Assembly (NCBI RefSeq): GCF_000702665.1
Contig: NZ_JNJA01000003.1
Span: forward strand, 434,001-498,000
Source: Solidesulfovibrio alcoholivorans DSM 5433
Lineage (GTDB): Bacteria > Desulfobacterota > Desulfovibrionia > Desulfovibrionales > Desulfovibrionaceae
Direction: 5' to 3'
DNA: 64,000 nucleotides
Part shown: positions 8,188 through 27,249 of the stretch, in pieces
Layout: the number at the start of each line of letters is the position of its first letter
How positions within the stretch are numbered: position 1 is the stretch's first letter
Program-made: the position numbers and the translations under genes
Notes under the pieces: model-generated
The model's input: only the letters and a program-made list of their open reading frames with translations
Told to the model about the DNA's origin: nothing
The model's database searches: none

Positions 8188-8235
8188 GGGGTGGTCCAGG
8201 AGGGGCCCCCGGCCCCTTCTGGCCGCCGGAGGCAT
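8188..8235 (-). repeat. GC-rich palindromic repeat, copy A
   Basis: A 48-base element that, read on the minus strand, begins ATGCCTCCGGCGGCCA and ends CTCCTGGACCACCCC. It matches copy B (25488-25535) with only two differences. The centre folds into a 12-bp hairpin with one mismatch and a GGG loop. It lies inside the gap between the permease and ATPase genes of one operon, where the hairpin could affect mRNA stability or cause partial termination. Confidence 0.85.
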
Positions 8236-8238
8236 TTC

Positions 8239-16702: not shown

Positions 16703-17808
16703 CGTTTTCGCTTGATTGGGATGCGCAGCTCCTGCCCGAGGGACAGGCGGGTCGAGTCCACGCTGGGATTGACCGCGGTCAGGTCGGCCGCGGGCACGCC
16801 GAGTTTCCGGGCGATGCCGAGGATGGTGTCGCCTTTTTTTACCGCATAGGTCTTCCGGCTGGGTTTGGCCTTGGAGACGGGCGGTTCCCGGGCCGGTTCC
16901 GGCGTTGCCTCGGCCAGGGGGCGCAGGTCCCGGGCGTAAGCGCGCAGTTCGTCCGCGCCGGCGCTCGGGGGCAGTTTCTCGCCGGCGGCCACGGCGGCCA
17001 GGGTCACGCCGGCAAGCAACTTCGCGCCGCTTTCGGTCATGTGCACGCCGTCCGGCGTGCGCAACAGCACGGCGTCGCCGGTGGCCGCGTCGCGGCCGTG
17101 GCGGGTGAAGCGGCCCGAAGGGTCGGAAAAGGGGGCCTGCGTGTCCACGAAGCGGCAGCCGCCCGTGGCGGCGCACATGCCGGACAGGGCCGCGTTGACC
17201 TGTTTGGCCCCGACCGCCAGCGACGCTTCGCCCATGGACGGCACGCCGATCCAGTAGATGCGCACGGCCGGGTTGGCCGCGCGGCAGATCTCCACCAGTT
17301 CCCTGGCCTTGGCCGCATACGCCTCGACCCAGGCCGGGTTGTCGAAATAGATGCGTGATCCGTCCGGGCCTTCCACGGGCATGACGTCGTTGGCCCCGAG
17401 CATGATGACCACGATGTCCGGGGTTTCCCGGGCCATGTGCTCGCGCAGGCGTGCCGGCCAGTCGAGGAGTTCGGGGCGGGTCAGGCCCGTGGACTTGGTG
17501 CCGTCGCGGCTGAAGTCGAGGCCGGGTGTGCCGGTAAGCGCCCGTTCGAGCTGTTCGCCGAGGCTGATGGACAACGAATCGCCGACAACCAGGAGCTTTC
17601 GCGCCGTGGCGGTGCGGTGCGGTTTGGGGGCGCGGCGGGAAAAGACGTCTGTGGGCGCGAGGTCGGCGTGCTGCGGGGGGGGCGTTTCGTTGCCGTCGCC
17701 GTTGCAGGCGGCCCCGAGCAGGCACAGGCCGCACAGCGCGCAGGCCAGGACGAAACGGCCTGTTCGGGAGCGGGACGGACCGTCCCGGCGGAAGCGGCCG
17801 GCAAGCAT
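16699..17808 (-). CDS. SGNH (DUF459-like) lipoprotein with C-terminal LysM
   Basis: 369-aa predicted lipoprotein. Residues 1-35 are a signal with lipobox LGAAC. The SGNH hydrolase blocks are [13 protein letters not shown] (Ser), [12 protein letters not shown] (Asn) and [14 protein letters not shown] (Asp/His). A LysM domain ([17 protein letters not shown]) closes the chain, which suggests binding to peptidoglycan. Family members de-O-acetylate or transfer acyl groups on envelope glycans. The start at 17808 is chosen for its signal peptide; one at 17844 would overlap the upstream gene by 26 bases. Neither has a clear ribosome binding site. Last of three tandem SGNH genes. Confidence 0.82.
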
Positions 17809-17818
17809 GGCGCGCCCG

Positions 17819-18982
17819 TTACGGGGCGCGCAGGGAAGAGGCATGGGACGTATCCGGGGTTTTGGGCCGCAGTTCCATTTCCTTGGCCAGGGTGGCCAGG
17901 AAGGACTGGGCCAGGATGTCGCCGCCGGCGACCGTGAAGTGGACCTTGTCGTTGGCGCGGACCTTGATCTTGACGCCCTTGTCGTTGGGCAGAAACGTCG
18001 AATAGTTGCCCTGCGCATCGGTCAGCAGCGACCAGGTGTCCAGGAACCGGCTCGTGGCAAACCGCCCGCATTCGGTCTTGACGATGTCGTTCATGACCTC
18101 GGCCTGCTTGGCATAGGACGGATCGCCCATGATCGGCAGCCCGATCCAGTAGTTGCGGATGCCGCGTTGCTGCAACGCCTCCAGGAAATCCTCGACGCGC
18201 ATGGAAAAGACCTCGGGCCAGGTCTTGTTCGTGCTTCCGGGCGGGCGCGGCTTTTCGTTGACGTTGATGTACTTGGCGTCATTGGCGCCCATCATGATGA
18301 CCACGACGTCGGGCTTGTATTTGTCCAGGAACACGCGCAGGGCCTTGCCCCAGTCGTAGTACTTGGGATTGGCCAGGCCGCTCGAGACCTTGCCTTCCTC
18401 GATGAGCTGGACGTTTTCGAATTCGGCCATGCTGCGGCGCAGCGACAGCGACAGGCCGATAGCCAGCGAATCGCCGACAACCAGGAGCTTGCGCGACCCG
18501 GTGAGCTTCGCCTGGCCCAGGGCCGGACCGGCCTGGTCAGCGGCGGGAATCGCGGCCGCGTGCGTCTGGTCGGGTGTCGGGAGCACGTCTTCCGCAGCCT
18601 GGGACGGCTTGGGCGGGGCCAGGGCGGCGAGCAGGTCGTCGGTGTCCACGGGGATGTCGGGCTTGAGCACCGGCTGGTTGGGGTCCAGGCGGTTTTTGAG
18701 CGCCTGGATCTCGGCCTCGGTATTGGGCTCGTCGCGACAGGCCAGGGAGTTCTTGTAGGTTTCGTCGAAATACGGGGCGAGGGCGCAGTCGAGGGACCGC
18801 GACGCCGGGCCAAGCCCGGATTCGCGCCAGAGGTTGCGCGCCAGGCGCACCTGCCGGGCCAGTCCCGGAGCCGGGCCGTCGGCCAGATGGTCGTCCACCC
18901 ACACCGAAACTTTTTCGATGTTGACCATGGCGGCGACGGCCAGGGCGATGACGTATACGAAACAGGCTTTTTTCCAGCTCAT
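17819..18982 (-). CDS. SGNH (DUF459-like) membrane-anchored protein
   Basis: 387-aa protein with an N-terminal anchor (WKKACFVYVIALAVAAMV). The SGNH blocks are [34 protein letters not shown] and VRANDKVHFTVAGGDI. Between the anchor and the domain is a charged region and a Pro/Ala linker. SGLANPKYYDW and its counterparts are shared with the neighbour at 19034, so the genes are duplicates. Acyl-group handling on a cell-surface polymer is likely from the family, but no acyltransferase (MBOAT) gene is next to it in this window. Confidence 0.83.
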   Translation of the reverse strand: MSWKKACFVYVIALAVAAMVNIEKVSVWVDDHLADGPAPGLARQVRLARNLWRESGLGPASRSLDCALAPYFDETYKNSLACRDEPNTEAEIQALKNRLDPNQPVLKPDIPVDTDDLLAALAPPKPSQAAEDVLPTPDQTHAAAIPAADQAGPALGQAKLTGSRKLLVVGDSLAIGLSLSLRRSMAEFENVQLIEEGKVSSGLANPKYYDWGKALRVFLDKYKPDVVVIMMGANDAKYINVNEKPRPPGSTNKTWPEVFSMRVEDFLEALQQRGIRNYWIGLPIMGDPSYAKQAEVMNDIVKTECGRFATSRFLDTWSLLTDAQGNYSTFLPNDKGVKIKVRANDKVHFTVAGGDILAQSFLATLAKEMELRPKTPDTSHASSLRAP

Positions 18983-19033
18983 GGGCCGTGGCTTTGCTCG
19001 CGGGTTGTGGATGCGGATCGGGTCGTGACGGGA

Positions 19034-19831
19034 TCAGCGGGGATCGGCCATGGCCATGACGATGCGGTCCGTCAGCAGGCGGCAGCCGGCGGTCGTGAAA
19101 TGGACGCCGTCCTTGCCGCGCAGGGAGACGGCCTTGCCGGCCAGGGTTTTCTTGGGACAAAACCGGCCCGAGGCGTCGGCGAACAGGTCCCAGGAATCGA
19201 TGAAACGGCAGGACCCGGCCGCGCCGCATGCCGTGCGCATGGCCTCGTTGGCGGTCCAGGCGCGCTGGCTGTAAGCCTTTTCGCGCATGGGCGGCAGGCC
19301 CACCCAGTAGACCGTCACGCCGTGTCCGGCGGCGATGTCCAGAAACCGTTTGGCCTTGGCCGAGAAGTCCTGGGCCCACTGCGGTGTGCCCCGACCGTTT
19401 TTGGCGTCGTTGCCGCCGAGCATGACCAGCAGGACGTCGGGCTTTTCCGCGTCGAGAAACGTCGCCAGTGCCTTTTCCCAGTCGTAGAACTGCGGCGAAT
19501 TGAGCCCGCTCGAGACCTTGCCGCGGTTGGCCAGGGCGGCCTGGGACTTCTGCCCCAGCGACTGCGGCATGGTCAGGCCCAGGCCCTGGGCGAACGAGTC
19601 GCCAACAAGCAGGATCTTGTGCGGCTGCTTGCCCGAGCGCACCAGGAGGTCGGCGGCGGATTCGGCCGGGGCGGCAGCGGAGACCGCCTGCGCGGCCTTG
19701 GTCTTCCTGGCTAGGCCGGGCGTGGCCGCGACCAGGACGAAGGCCAGCGCCGCCACGAGGGCGAGGGCGGAAATCGTGCAGGGGAAAGCGCGCCGGAGCG
19801 GCAGCGGAACATGTCGCATCCAAGCGACCAT
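19034..19831 (-). CDS. SGNH (DUF459-like) exported protein
   Basis: 265-aa exported protein with signal peptide (RRAFPC then a hydrophobic stretch ending near GLARK). SGNH blocks: KILLVGDSFAQGLGLTMP, VLLVMLGGNDAKNGRG and GKDGVHFTTAGCRLL. SGLNSPQFYDWEKAL matches the corresponding segment of the next gene. The start at 19831 or 19819 is unresolved, with no clear ribosome binding site; the frame also opens at a TTG at 19885. First of three tandem SGNH genes, about 50 bases before the second. Confidence 0.8.
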   Translation of the reverse strand: MVAWMRHVPLPLRRAFPCTISALALVAALAFVLVAATPGLARKTKAAQAVSAAAPAESAADLLVRSGKQPHKILLVGDSFAQGLGLTMPQSLGQKSQAALANRGKVSSGLNSPQFYDWEKALATFLDAEKPDVLLVMLGGNDAKNGRGTPQWAQDFSAKAKRFLDIAAGHGVTVYWVGLPPMREKAYSQRAWTANEAMRTACGAAGSCRFIDSWDLFADASGRFCPKKTLAGKAVSLRGKDGVHFTTAGCRLLTDRIVMAMADPR

Positions 19832-22984: not shown

Positions 22985-25474
22985 ATGGGAACTGCCGCAC
23001 GCACTAATGGCAAGGACGCCGGAAAGGGCGGACAGCCGGGCTTCCGGGTCACCCGGGAGATCGTGGGACTGGCCGCCTTTTTCCTGGCCGTTTTTCTCTG
23101 CGTCGCCCTGTACACGTACAATGCGGGCGACCCGGGATTCAACCAATCCGTTTCGGCCCGCCACGGCGTGGCCAACAAGGCCGGGCTGGTCGGGGCCTAC
23201 CTCGGCGGCCTGCTCGCCGAATCCTTCGGCGTCTGGGCCTACCTCATCCCCTGCTGGATCGTCTGGCGCAGCCTGCGCCTGTTCGCGCCGTGCCTGAAAT
23301 TGCCGTTCTGGCGCGGGGCCGGGGCCTTTTTCCTGTCCCTGGTCCTGCTCGCCTTTCTCGGATCGTCCTGGGGCCTTTTCGGCCTGGGTCTCGGCAATGT
23401 CCGGGGCGGGGGCGGGGTCGGCAGGGCGCTTTTTGAATTCTTCAACCATTACTTGAGCGCTTTCGGGGCCTACTTTTTCCTGGGCTGCGCCATGGTGGCC
23501 GCGGTGCAGCTGACCTTCGGCCTGACCTGGAGCAATTTCTGGCAGCCGGTCATGGCCGTCCTCAACGAGCAGTGCTGGCGCTGTCTCGACGCCTGGAGCG
23601 CCTGGCGCGAACGCCGCGCCGAGGCCAGGGCGGAGCGGGAAGCGCAGCGTCCGGCCAAGCCCCGCGCCCCCGAGCCGGAACCCGAGCCCGAATTCGAGCT
23701 CGACGGTGAGGAGATTGCGCCGGCGGCCAAGCCCAAGGCGCGCCCCGCGCGCGAAAAGGCCAAGGCGGCCAAGGACCCGGAGACGACCGTCGCGCCGGCG
23801 GCCAAGCCCGTGCCTGTCGCGGCCCCGGCCAAGGAACCGACCGAGGCCGTGGACCGCTTCCTCGATGCCATCGTGCACCAGGTGCGCACGGACGGGCCCG
23901 CGCCAAAGGCCGGCGCGAAACCCGCGCACGAGGACCCCTCGCCCATGCAGAACGTGGCCCCGGCCCCCGCAAAACCGGCCGCGCCGAAACCGGCCAGACC
24001 CGCGCCCAGGCCCGCAGCCAAATCCGGCGACATGATACCGACGCTTGACCTGCTCAGCGTGCCGCCCGCGACCGGCAACGCGCCCGTCGATCCCGAGGTC
24101 TGCCGCCGGCAGGCCGAGAGCCTCATCACCTGCCTCAATGACTTCGGCATCCAGGGCGAGGTCATGCGCGTGGTGCCCGGGCCGGTCGTCACCATGTTCG
24201 AGGTCAAGCCCGCGCCCGGTGTCAAGATCAGCCGCATCGTCGGGCTTTCCGTGGACCTGGCCCTGGCCATGAAGGCTTTGGCCGTGCGCATCGAAGGTCC
24301 CATCCCGGGCAAGGACACGGTGGGCGTCGAGATCCCCAACGCCAAGCGCCAGACCGTCTATTTCCGCGAGGTGCTCGACACCGAGGCCTTCCGCGCTTCG
24401 CCGTCCAAACTGACGCTCGCCATCGGCAAGGACATCCAGGGCCGGCCGCAGGTGGCGGACCTCGCACGCATGCCGCACCTGCTCGTGGCCGGCGCCACGG
24501 GTTCGGGCAAGAGCGTGTGCATCAACGGCATCCTGCTCTCGATCCTCTACAAGGCCACACCCGACGAGGTGAAGCTCCTGCTCGTCGATCCTAAGCGCAT
24601 CGAGCTTTCCGTCTACAACGACCTGCCCCACCTCGTGCACCCGGTCGTGACCGAGACGGCCATGGCCAAATCCGCCCTGGACTGGGCCGTGGCCGAGATG
24701 GACAGGCGCTACGAGGCCATGGCGCTCCTCGGCGTGCGCAACATCGCCGGCTACAACGAAAAGCTCGAGAAAATGGGCGACAAGCGGCCCGACGAACTGG
24801 CCGGGCTCGAGCCCTTGCCCTACCTCGTCATCGTCATCGACGAGCTGGCCGACCTCATGATGACCGCGGCCAAGGAAGTGGAAGTCAGCATCGTGCGCCT
24901 GGCCCAGCTGGCCCGCGCCGCCGGCATCCACCTGATCCTGGCCACCCAGCGCCCGAGCGTGGACGTGGTCACGGGGCTGATCAAGGCCAACTTCCCCACG
25001 CGCATCGCCTTCCAGGTGACGAGCAAGCACGATTCGCGCACCATCCTCGATGCCGTGGGCGCGGAATACCTGCTGGGGCGCGGCGACATGCTCTTTAAAC
25101 CCAGCGGTGGCAAGACCGTGCGCATGCACGGGGCCTTTGTCTCCGACGAGGAAACCGCCGCTGTGGTCGAACACTGGAAGAGCCACGCCGCGCCGAGCTA
25201 CCGCCTCGATTTCAGCGAATGGCAGAAGGACGGCAACGGCGGCGGAGGGGAACTCGGCGGCGAAGGCGGCGACGACACCGCTTCCGACGCGGTCTACCCG
25301 CAGGCCGTGGAATTCGTCATGGAGCAGGGCAAGGCCTCCATTTCGCTCATCCAGCGGCGCTTCCGCATCGGCTTCAACCGGGCCGCCCGCTTTATCGAAC
25401 AAATGGAGCGCGACGGCCTCCTCGGCCCCCAGGAAGGCAGCAAGCCCCGGTCGGTTATTCGGAACAAAGAGTAA
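22985..25474 (+). CDS. ftsK: DNA translocase FtsK/SpoIIIE
   Basis: 829-aa septal DNA pump that clears chromosome ends at division and activates dimer resolution. About four N-terminal spans (residues 25-190) are followed by a Pro/Ala/Glu-rich linker (about 205-340). The motor domain has Walker A AGATGSGKSVCING and Walker B LPYLVIVIDELADLM, with LATQRPSVDVVTGLIKANFPTR. The C-terminal gamma winged-helix (VMEQGKASISLIQRRFRIGFNRAARFIEQME) reads KOPS-type sequences. No good ribosome binding site is seen before the ATG. It follows efp by 72 bases. Confidence 0.95.
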   Translation: MGTAARTNGKDAGKGGQPGFRVTREIVGLAAFFLAVFLCVALYTYNAGDPGFNQSVSARHGVANKAGLVGAYLGGLLAESFGVWAYLIPCWIVWRSLRLFAPCLKLPFWRGAGAFFLSLVLLAFLGSSWGLFGLGLGNVRGGGGVGRALFEFFNHYLSAFGAYFFLGCAMVAAVQLTFGLTWSNFWQPVMAVLNEQCWRCLDAWSAWRERRAEARAEREAQRPAKPRAPEPEPEPEFELDGEEIAPAAKPKARPAREKAKAAKDPETTVAPAAKPVPVAAPAKEPTEAVDRFLDAIVHQVRTDGPAPKAGAKPAHEDPSPMQNVAPAPAKPAAPKPARPAPRPAAKSGDMIPTLDLLSVPPATGNAPVDPEVCRRQAESLITCLNDFGIQGEVMRVVPGPVVTMFEVKPAPGVKISRIVGLSVDLALAMKALAVRIEGPIPGKDTVGVEIPNAKRQTVYFREVLDTEAFRASPSKLTLAIGKDIQGRPQVADLARMPHLLVAGATGSGKSVCINGILLSILYKATPDEVKLLLVDPKRIELSVYNDLPHLVHPVVTETAMAKSALDWAVAEMDRRYEAMALLGVRNIAGYNEKLEKMGDKRPDELAGLEPLPYLVIVIDELADLMMTAAKEVEVSIVRLAQLARAAGIHLILATQRPSVDVVTGLIKANFPTRIAFQVTSKHDSRTILDAVGAEYLLGRGDMLFKPSGGKTVRMHGAFVSDEETAAVVEHWKSHAAPSYRLDFSEWQKDGNGGGGELGGEGGDDTASDAVYPQAVEFVMEQGKASISLIQRRFRIGFNRAARFIEQMERDGLLGPQEGSKPRSVIRNKE

Positions 25475-25487
25475 AGAGTTTAGACCA

Positions 25488-25535
25488 ATGCCTCCGGCGG
25501 CCAGGAGGGGCCGAGGGCCCCTCCTGGACCACCCC
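25488..25535 (+). repeat. GC-rich palindromic repeat, copy B
   Basis: 48 bases running from ATGCCTCCGGCGGCCA to CTGGACCACCCC, differing from copy A (8188-8235) at two positions. CCAGGAGGGGCC (25501-25512) and GGCCCCTCCTGG (25516-25527) form a perfect 12-bp hairpin with loop GAG. It lies between the ftsK stop and lolA. Confidence 0.88.
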
Positions 25536-25572
25536 GAAAGGGGGGAGCGTAACAATAGTGGATAAAGGAACT

Positions 25573-26361
25573 ATGGATAGTTTATCGGAGACGAGACGAG
25601 TGATGGAGACTGCATGCCGCGCGCAGGGTGACGCCCCCCGAGAAGGGATTCCAAAGGGCGGAGCCCTTTGGTCGCCGAAGGCATCCCTCCTGCCGCTTTT
25701 TATGGCCCTGTGCCTGCTCGCCCTCTGGGCCGCGCCGGCCATGGCCGTGGACGCGACGGAGCTCGCCGGGCGCATCCAGAAGAAGTACGCCACGATCAAT
25801 GCCTTTTCCGCCAATTTCAGCCAGTCCATCCGCAACGCGGCCAGCGGCGACACGGAAAAGCGTTCCGGCTCCTTTCTATTCAAGAAGCCCGTGCTCGTGC
25901 GCTGGGAGACGCTCAAACCCGAAAAGGAACTGCTCATCGTCGGCAAGGATGCCGTCTGGGACTATTTCGAGGAGGACAAGGAGGCCTACCGCTACGCGGT
26001 GCAGGAGATCATCGGCTCCAAGACCATGTTGCGCTTCCTCACGGGCAAGGCCAACCTGACCGAGGATTTCCTGGTCGCCGCCGGCAAGCCCGGGGAGGCC
26101 GGGCCGGGACAGGCCGTGCTCCAACTCGCCCCGCGCGAACCCGAGCCCGGGCTCGTGCTGGCCAAGGTCTGGGTGGATTTGTCCACGGACATGATCGCCC
26201 GCATCTTCATCCAGGATTTCTACGCCAACACCAACGACCTGACCCTCGAAGGCGTGGTGGTCAATCCCAAGCTAGCGGATACGCTCTTCGCCTTCACCCC
26301 GCCCAGGGACGCCAAAGTCCACGACAACGTTCCGGTCAAGGGACACGACCTGCCCAAATAG
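25573..26361 (+). CDS. lolA: Outer-membrane lipoprotein carrier protein LolA
   Basis: 262-aa precursor of the periplasmic chaperone that carries lipoproteins from the LolCDE release complex to the outer membrane. The hydrophobic signal core LLPLFMALCLLALWAAPAMA precedes the mature start VDATELA; LolA-type segments follow (FSANFSQSI, GSFLFKKPVLVRWE, WVDLSTDMIARI). The start is uncertain: the ATG at 25573 follows AAAGGAAC, a second ATG lies at 25603, and GTG 25558 is possible. All of these translate through a palindromic repeat (25645-25684), giving an unusually long n-region. The short alternative at about 25701 would lack positive charge. Confidence 0.85.
   Translation: MDSLSETRRVMETACRAQGDAPREGIPKGGALWSPKASLLPLFMALCLLALWAAPAMAVDATELAGRIQKKYATINAFSANFSQSIRNAASGDTEKRSGSFLFKKPVLVRWETLKPEKELLIVGKDAVWDYFEEDKEAYRYAVQEIIGSKTMLRFLTGKANLTEDFLVAAGKPGEAGPGQAVLQLAPREPEPGLVLAKVWVDLSTDMIARIFIQDFYANTNDLTLEGVVVNPKLADTLFAFTPPRDAKVHDNVPVKGHDLPK
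25645..25684 (-). repeat. GC-rich palindromic repeat, copy C, inside the lolA reading frame
   Basis: On the minus strand this reads ATGCCTTCGGCGACCA at one end and TGGAATCCC at the other, the same flanks as copies A and B around a different stem. CCAAAGGGC (25651-25659) and GCCCTTTGG (25663-25671) form a 9-bp hairpin with loop GGA. It lies in frame within lolA and encodes IPKGGALWSPKA just before the signal core. Confidence 0.75.
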
Positions 26362-26379: not shown

Positions 26380-27249
26380 TTACCTGCCGCGCCGCACCCG
26401 GGACTGGGGTGCGGCGCGGTGTTTTTGTTGCGGCCGCTCCGCAGGGCGCGCGGTGATTTCGCGGACAGTCTGCGGGCGCGTCTCCGACCTTTCTCCATCG
26501 AGCCCCACGGCGCGGCGCAGGGCGGTCAATTCGCCGGCCGTGAGTTCCCGGCATTCCCCGGGCGGCAGTTCGCCCAAGGCGAGCGGCCCCTGGGCGACGC
26601 GTACGAGCTGCAGCACCGTGAGCTGCAAGTCGCGGCACATGCGCCGGACCTGGCGGTTGACGCCCTGGGAGAGTTCCATTTCCAGCACGAAGCGGTCCGG
26701 GCCGAGACGCTTGACGATGCGGGCCGGCACCGGCGCGAGCGCCTCGCCTTCGGCCAGGGTCATGCCCCGCGCCATGGCGTCGAGGGTGTTCTGACCGACC
26801 GCGCCGCGCACCGTGACCCGGTAGCGTTTGGCCACGTGCCAGCGCGGATGCGCCAGCCGGAAGGCCAGTTCGCCGTCGGTGGTGAGCAGGAGCAGCCCCT
26901 CGGAGAAGTAGTCGAGCCGCCCCACGGAGAAAAGCCGCCGCTTGCGAAAGCGCGCGGGCAGGGCGTCGAACACGGTGGGCCGGCCTTCGGGGTCGCGGGC
27001 CGTGGTCACGCAGCCCGGGCGCTTGTGCAGCATGAGCGTCAGGTTTCCGGCGTCGCGGCGCAGAGACACGGACTTGCCGTCCACGGCCAGGGCGTCGCGG
27101 CCGGGATCGACCTTGCGGCCCAGTTCCGTGACCACGGTCCCGTTGACCGTCACCCGCCCGGCGGCGATCAACGCGTCGGCCTGTCGCCGCGAGGTCACGC
27201 CGGCGTCGGCCAGGGCCTTGTTGAGGCGGATGGAGGCTGCTTCGTCCAT
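26380..27249 (-). CDS. 23S rRNA pseudouridine synthase, RsuA/RluB family
   Basis: 289-aa enzyme that isomerises uridine to pseudouridine in ribosomal RNA. An N-terminal S4 domain (RLNKALADAGVTSRRQADALI) is followed by the catalytic domain with SVGRLDYFSEGLLLLTTDGELA, which holds the catalytic Asp, and VNRQVRRMCRDL. The C-terminal tail is basic and Arg/Gln-rich (RPQQKHRAAPQSRVRRGR). RluB is the closest familiar subgroup, but RluF/RsuA-like targets are possible. It converges on lolA; the lolA terminator lies inside its last codons. Confidence 0.9.
   Translation of the reverse strand: MDEAASIRLNKALADAGVTSRRQADALIAAGRVTVNGTVVTELGRKVDPGRDALAVDGKSVSLRRDAGNLTLMLHKRPGCVTTARDPEGRPTVFDALPARFRKRRLFSVGRLDYFSEGLLLLTTDGELAFRLAHPRWHVAKRYRVTVRGAVGQNTLDAMARGMTLAEGEALAPVPARIVKRLGPDRFVLEMELSQGVNRQVRRMCRDLQLTVLQLVRVAQGPLALGELPPGECRELTAGELTALRRAVGLDGERSETRPQTVREITARPAERPQQKHRAAPQSRVRRGR
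26387..26426 (+). terminator. Rho-independent terminator of lolA
   Basis: CCGCGCCGCACCC (26387-26399) pairs perfectly with GGGTGCGGCGCGG (26407-26419), followed by TGTTTTTG. It stands 25 bases after the lolA stop and overlaps the 3' coding end of the convergent pseudouridine synthase gene. Confidence 0.85.

Follow-up and report, generated by a model that had tools for sequence, protein, structure and literature searches.

A dispersed palindromic repeat is probably translated as the start of LolA in four Solidesulfovibrio-like species

Does a palindromic repeat that lies between the candidate start codons of lolA and the core of its signal peptide form part of the LolA protein, and if so, how did it come to be there? 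The question arises in a window of 64,000 bases (the whole stretch of DNA that was analysed), which is part of contig C3 of the 5.1-Mb draft genome G000. The gene itself is not in doubt. Its reading frame (25573-26361, plus strand; 262 amino acids from ATG 25573) matches Pfam PF03548 (E 3.9e-21, 75.9 bits versus a cut-off of 23.6) and NCBIfam TIGR00547 (128.9 versus a cut-off of 112), and it lies between ftsK (22985-25474) and a convergent pseudouridine synthase gene (26380-27249). Judged by eye and from sequence only, the N-terminus, with the pre-sequence segment GIPKGGALWSPK, contains a hydrophobic core and an A-x-A site, with a lysine ahead of the core. The mature protein, VDATELAG, would begin at about 25747 on the plus strand, a cleavage site likewise placed by eye, and what remains of the putative signal peptide after the repeat, SLLPLFMALCLLALWAAPAMA (25684-25746, plus strand), includes ATG 25702 and, in its c-region, ATG 25741.

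Two repeat copies follow ftsK, sharing the arm GCCTYCGGCGRCC, which is followed by a palindrome in each. Copy B (25487-25535, plus strand, 49 nt) is a AGGAGGGGCC-type repeat in sense orientation 3' of the ftsK stop codon, outside the LolA protein; it is 96% complementary to another copy at 8188-8236 and has counterparts with few differences in genomes G010, G012 and G013. Copy C (25645-25687, minus strand) is of the AAAGGGC type, antisense to lolA, with the sequence GGGATTCC-AAAGGGC-GGA-GCCCTTT-GGTCGCCGAAGGCATCCC and a 9-bp hairpin whose folding energy is unexceptional for its composition (z -1.3; copy B, z -3.4). Read in the lolA frame it is free of stops and encodes GIPKGGALWSPKAS (25645-25686). 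The interval between the copies (25536-25644, plus strand) holds the candidate lolA starts GTG 25558, ATG 25573, GTG 25600 and ATG 25603, and is little conserved among species; at 109 nt it agrees with the spacing of about 110 bases given in the preliminary description.

That copy C is a genuine family member placed in frame between these candidate starts and the signal-peptide core, as the same description had claimed, is borne out. The arm GCCTYCGGCGRCC has 285 exact matches in G000 versus 7 for the backwards pattern, and the AAAGGGC-subtype pattern GCCTTCGGCGACCAAAGGGCTC, with up to 3 mismatches, occurs at 27 places versus 0 reversed, 2 of the 27 being the duplicated lolA, so that a chance palindrome is excluded; part of contig C3 is duplicated in inverted orientation, and both G000 counts include the resulting mirror copies. 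That duplication (C3:165477-503844, axis C3:334660/334661) spans the whole window (C3:171321-235320) and doubles lolA in G000. The comparison of the two halves covered the window, the flanks of the axis and locus L106, and in it every one of the 64,000 window bases is identical in the mirror copy; the same holds for 6,340 bases to either side of the axis and for 13,701 bases within L106. The duplication probably arose in the assembly as an artefact and may account for the contamination value of 7.78%. Elsewhere in the window, at 17222-19623, three segments that resemble one another follow at spacings of about 0.9-1.2 kb (direct repeat families D1 and D3-D5); they are probably paralogous genes.

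Across the genus the arm is found in all 14 genomes, at 132-387 per genome (controls, 1-11). A census of 93 distinct G000 arms, on the examined stretches of C1-C3 plus the window, placed 71 in sense orientation no more than 80 nt from a gene 3' end and 11, lolA included, antisense at a gene 5' end, both counts being approximate as the gene calls came from a small home-made model. The customary site of the family is thus directly 3' of a stop codon. The stem test of this census, which overlooks imperfect stems, left 17 of the 93 arms labelled as stemless, among them C2:460710 and C2:586106, which by eye are not repeats at all. For the AAAGGGC subtype, 116 places in 6 genomes reduce to 89 distinct copies, of which 57 were assigned to gene 3' ends in sense, 21 to gene 5' ends in antisense, 6 to both classes and 5 to neither; the six double calls are mostly shadow frames by eye, as are some of the antisense-at-start calls, and the wider distance limits used here make the 5'-end rates of the two censuses not comparable. 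Short (copy C has 43 nt, and copies inspected by eye reach roughly 60 nt), numerous and mostly extragenic, the family is one of REP-like dispersed palindromes. It is not a known Rfam RNA family, the two matches obtained being sub-threshold (E 0.011 and 0.26) and far below gathering scores. Nor do the pairs of plus and minus arms look like the ends of a larger mobile element, since by eye many of them fit neighbouring genes, each with its own 3' copy. A literature search, judged by titles and the openings of abstracts and with most subscription journals outside its coverage, returned no account of the repeat in Desulfovibrio or Solidesulfovibrio. At one further locus (L012, G000:C3:245564) a predicted gene terminates within a sense copy, from which its C-terminus would gain PPAAKGLSPSGLP.

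What stood at the beginning of lolA before the repeat can be read from its relatives. Close relatives of LolA in named records come from Solidesulfovibrio and Desulfovibrio, and the genus compared here is accordingly taken as Solidesulfovibrio. We located LolA in 13 of the 14 genus genomes, missing it in G007 (89% complete), and copy C lies in frame directly ahead of the hydrophobic core in four of the 13 orthologs (G000, G010, G012 and G013). The other nine lack a repeat in frame and have an ordinary n-region directly before the core: MKKR (G004, G011), MKCR (G009), MKYR (G008), MKTF (G003), MNYR (G001) and MRH (G002, G005, G006), in every case with an ATG start and a lysine or arginine among the first 4 residues at the corresponding position. 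Other genera of the family conform: at all 19 readable loci of the 21 examined (L186 and L190 are unclear), the protein read from an ATG start chosen by eye has K or R no later than residue 5. Because repeat-free relatives have such ordinary charged starts, the repeat looks as though it occupies the site of the former start codon and charged n-region of lolA. The comparison with related strains proposed in the preliminary description thus yields a segment that is repeat-derived, in frame in a conserved gene with repeat-free orthologs, and the idea of a conserved LolA segment that merely resembles the repeat fails on the nine orthologs that lack it. The suggestion that the element had been accommodated in an exported protein stands in so far as the element is in frame; the sequences speak for a replacement of the start codon and n-region rather than for a plain insertion.

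As for the order of events, we propose that an AAAGGGC-subtype copy settled antisense at the lolA start and charged n-region in a common ancestor of the four Solidesulfovibrio-like species. In a protein tree of HflX from the 14 genomes, a branch supported at 99/98 and present in 98% of bootstrap trees separates these four from the others (99/97 when the partly masked and gapped G010 row was cut or omitted); these trees are unrooted apart from midpoint rooting. A LolA tree with three outgroup rows fails to resolve one origin and needs 2 changes, LolA being too short a protein. A single origin of the repeat start of lolA is the simplest reading. It may also have been reached by another route, in which a repeat copy was already present in the spacer and a later deletion lost the old start and joined the repeat to the signal peptide. 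This would leave the same present protein and is compatible with our preferred reading; as a statement about history alone we regard it as a real possibility that falls short of an even chance. It draws on G003, whose spacer has a plus copy and, ahead of an ordinary ATGAAAACA start, a minus-orientation copy, such that an older spacer copy could possibly have been fused by deletion. However, this minus-orientation copy carries another hairpin (CGGGAGGGGGTGACCCCCTCCCGG) and perhaps represents a separate insertion, and G004 and G011 show only the plus copy with the standard arm.

Whichever way the repeat arrived, the central question is whether ribosomes read it. The strongest argument comes from G012, in which lolA has no ATG, GTG or TTG from the repeat until a GTG at the first mature residue, so that translation through the repeat appears nearly forced there. 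Past the repeat, lolA of G013 offers only TTG and GTG codons with anti-Shine-Dalgarno energies of -2.0 or weaker. In-frame ATGs lie upstream of the repeat in all four species, with energies (computed without scoring of spacing) of -3.0 to -6.6 across G000, G010 and G012, including -3.0 to -5.6 for the three ATGs of G012; of the three adjacent upstream ATGs of G013 one is unpaired (+2.2) and the others reach -3.4 and -4.3. In G000 the values are -4.7 for ATG 25573 and -6.6 for both GTG 25600 and ATG 25603, and the ATG starts of the nine repeat-free relatives range from -2.5 to -4.9. A stretch ATGGATAG following GGAAYT at the same position is common to G000 and G012, the flanking sequence having diverged.

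The alternative is that the repeat is a mere hairpin in the 5'-untranslated region and that lolA begins at ATG 25702 with the short signal peptide MALCLLALWAAPAMA, as an in-frame ATG in G000 and G010 would allow and as the extragenic position of most examined family copies, past 3' ends, might lead one to expect. We consider this improbable, for ATG 25702 has no Shine-Dalgarno pairing (+1.9 kcal/mol), a start there in G000 would yield a signal peptide without positive charge, and G012 and G013 have no equivalent codon. Other features of the locus bear on translation through the repeat with varying force. In a four-species alignment every gap that falls downstream of ATG 25573 has a length divisible by 3 (6 or 3, 39, 3), and gaps of 1 nt and 24/25 nt occur upstream of it; as a sign of coding the pattern is suggestive only, given that the events are few, that one gap lies in the undisputed signal peptide and that the ATGs of G013 are placed differently. 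The residues that would precede the repeat show hardly any conservation (MDSLSETRRV.., MDRFFRTTRP.., MMMHVLNRDL..) and thus no sign of selection, and non-coding copy B is conserved at least as much as copy C among the four species, so that conservation of copy C is no proof of coding. A simple home-made coding model sees the coding signal start only at 25654. Taken together, the repeat is probably translated as part of LolA, giving the export signal its positively charged beginning. Of the long n-region made partly of repeat sequence that the preliminary description had envisaged, the in-frame repeat and the lack of later ATG, GTG or TTG codons in G012 thus support a part.

The charge in question is carried by the AAG codon of the repeat (25678-25680, plus strand), directly before the hydrophobic core and present in G000, G010, G012 and G013. 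Read in the lolA direction, the repeat gives ..ALWSPKA.. in all four lolA copies and ..ALWPPEA.. in most subtype copies. Outside lolA, G000, G012 and G013 together have 45 places of this subtype (a count whose pattern admits GAG or AAG alone and which includes the mirror copy); the codon is GAG (Glu) in 44 and a lysine codon in 1, and both ALWSPKA changes together occur in 0 of the 45. Since glutamate there would put a negative charge beside the hydrophobic core, selection of the lysine for export is attractive. However, the variant may be non-adaptive, since the Lys-variant arm also exists outside lolA: in G003 at 1 of 22 places of the subtype and in G011 at 1 of 3, though in G009 at 0 of 42; with real stems in G006, in G007 and at another G003 locus; and, at three G012 loci, on hairpins of other types. 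The lysine may therefore have arrived with a variant repeat copy, and these occurrences in the genus and on G012 hairpins weaken the idea that a change from glutamate to lysine was a necessary adaptation. Within G000 all 9 variant-arm places were viewed, 2 being lolA and 7 stemless; those of G012 and G013 were viewed in part.

Copies of the repeat adjoin other gene starts as well. The cbiB gene (PF03186) of G000 and G010 (L014, L243, L244) has no start ATG: an antisense AAAGGGC copy, with two masked bases in G010, adjoins a TTG that lies 7 nt past the GGAGG of the repeat, and the frame closes at or a few codons from the repeat. With 10 of 13 loci readable, the 8 other readable loci have a start ATG, and the repeat probably supplies the cbiB ribosome-binding site in G000 and G010. 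For tilS (TIGR02432) in G000 the repeat stands directly ahead of CTG ACC, and readable relatives have an ATG close by; its start is perhaps either the CTG or a codon upstream, with reading through the repeat. At L003 (G000:C5 ~335783-337103) the TilS frame goes on to encode a domain of adenylate kinase (residues 365-431 of the part that was searched), an apparent TilS-Adk fusion with a repeat copy at its start too. In hflX (L121-L134; G000:C1:201764) a conserved ATT, ATC or ATA codon follows a Shine-Dalgarno-like stretch at the same position in all 14 genomes, and in 5 of the 14 (G004, G005, G006, G007, G012) the frame from the preceding stop to GLKPSQ is free of ATG, GTG and TTG, so the gene seems to begin at that codon. 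A rare start codon serves autoregulation in infC; a literature search for an AUU start codon in hflX found nothing. As a second translated repeat, hflX falls away: where a repeat is present, the conserved codon lies downstream of it, and the repeat is probably untranslated there. Of two further candidates, L288 was taken to be a shadow frame in antisense, and in L326 an ordinary ATG follows further downstream.

By analogy, lolA too might use a start other than ATG, GTG or TTG in or just past the repeat, such as, in G000, a CTG that lies four codons past that of the lysine, with repeat purines as the Shine-Dalgarno sequence, for which cbiB (TTG), tilS (CTG) and hflX offer possible parallels; this is very improbable, because lolA has GAAGG and not GGAGG in all four species and G012 and G013 lack an in-frame CTG at the matching position. 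The lysine change in the lolA copy is also what breaks GGAGG. One could go further and suppose that the AAAGGGC subtype repeatedly rewrites gene starts, as N-terminus in lolA and as ribosome-binding site in cbiB and perhaps tilS, and that the lolA lysine was then selected for export, a tentative generalization that we think somewhat less likely to hold than to fail.

We thus return, with considerable confidence, to the reading in which the repeat replaced the start of lolA and is now translated into the n-region of its signal peptide. Translation would begin upstream of the repeat, in the interval between the two copies that was once ftsK-lolA spacer, with ATG 25573, ATG 25603 or a nearby GTG as candidate initiators. 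It would continue across the 43 nt of the repeat and into the hydrophobic core that lolA already had, such that a long n-region ends with the peptide GIPKGGALWSPKA encoded by the repeat. The repeat lysine beside the core would take over from the lysine or arginine of an ancestral MKKR-type start, and the whole pre-sequence (48-58 amino acids for the two ATGs) would be cleaved between AMA and VD. Translation, Sec export, the cleavage site and the order of events are the parts of this reading that we infer. If it is correct, a start codon and an n-region can be replaced together while export persists, and REP-like elements can contribute to translation starts in two ways, as coding sequence and as ribosome-binding site. 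In the four species a selfish-looking palindrome has apparently come to function as the start of LolA, a conserved protein that is exported, and sister species free of the repeat provide a natural control; automatic choice of start codons at repeat-bearing genes is unsafe.

How does this case compare with known systems? REP elements, as characterized in the consulted text of PMC3733652, carry GTAG or CGTC tags and are associated with RAYT transposases; the main text of that paper does not contain the word 'Desulfovibrio'. The present family resembles them in consisting of short, high-copy palindromes, many intergenic and some within genes. Unlike GTAG REPs, it has no consistent GTAG ahead of the arm in the copies inspected by eye, and the two PF01797 loci of G000 (L191, L192) have no exact arm within the 2.7 and 3.3 kb examined, so that we do not assign it to the RAYT-associated GTAG REPs. 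Precedents for repeat-encoded protein are known, in the Rickettsia palindromic elements (RPEs) and in a Yersinia MITE that contributes to a signal peptide. RPEs (Ogata et al. 2000, 2002), in the account contained in the sections of PMC2229807 consulted here, are hairpin-forming dispersed repeats of 105-146 bp found in 19 reading frames. The likeness is that of dispersed hairpin repeats in frame in genes for conserved proteins. However, copy C has 43 nt, its family lies mostly past gene 3' ends, the host is unrelated, and in lolA the start and the n-region of the signal peptide have apparently been replaced, so the Rickettsia-type element drawn on in the preliminary description gives way to a REP-like one. 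In Yersinia, according to the same sections (Delihas 2007, PMC2229807), the 168-bp YPAL/RU-2 MITE forms part of the signal peptide of YPO1552, and there too a mobile palindromic element gives part of a predicted signal peptide. In contrast to YPO1552, a putative new exported protein, LolA is conserved and has repeat-free orthologs, and it is its own start that the much shorter, 43-nt element has apparently replaced.
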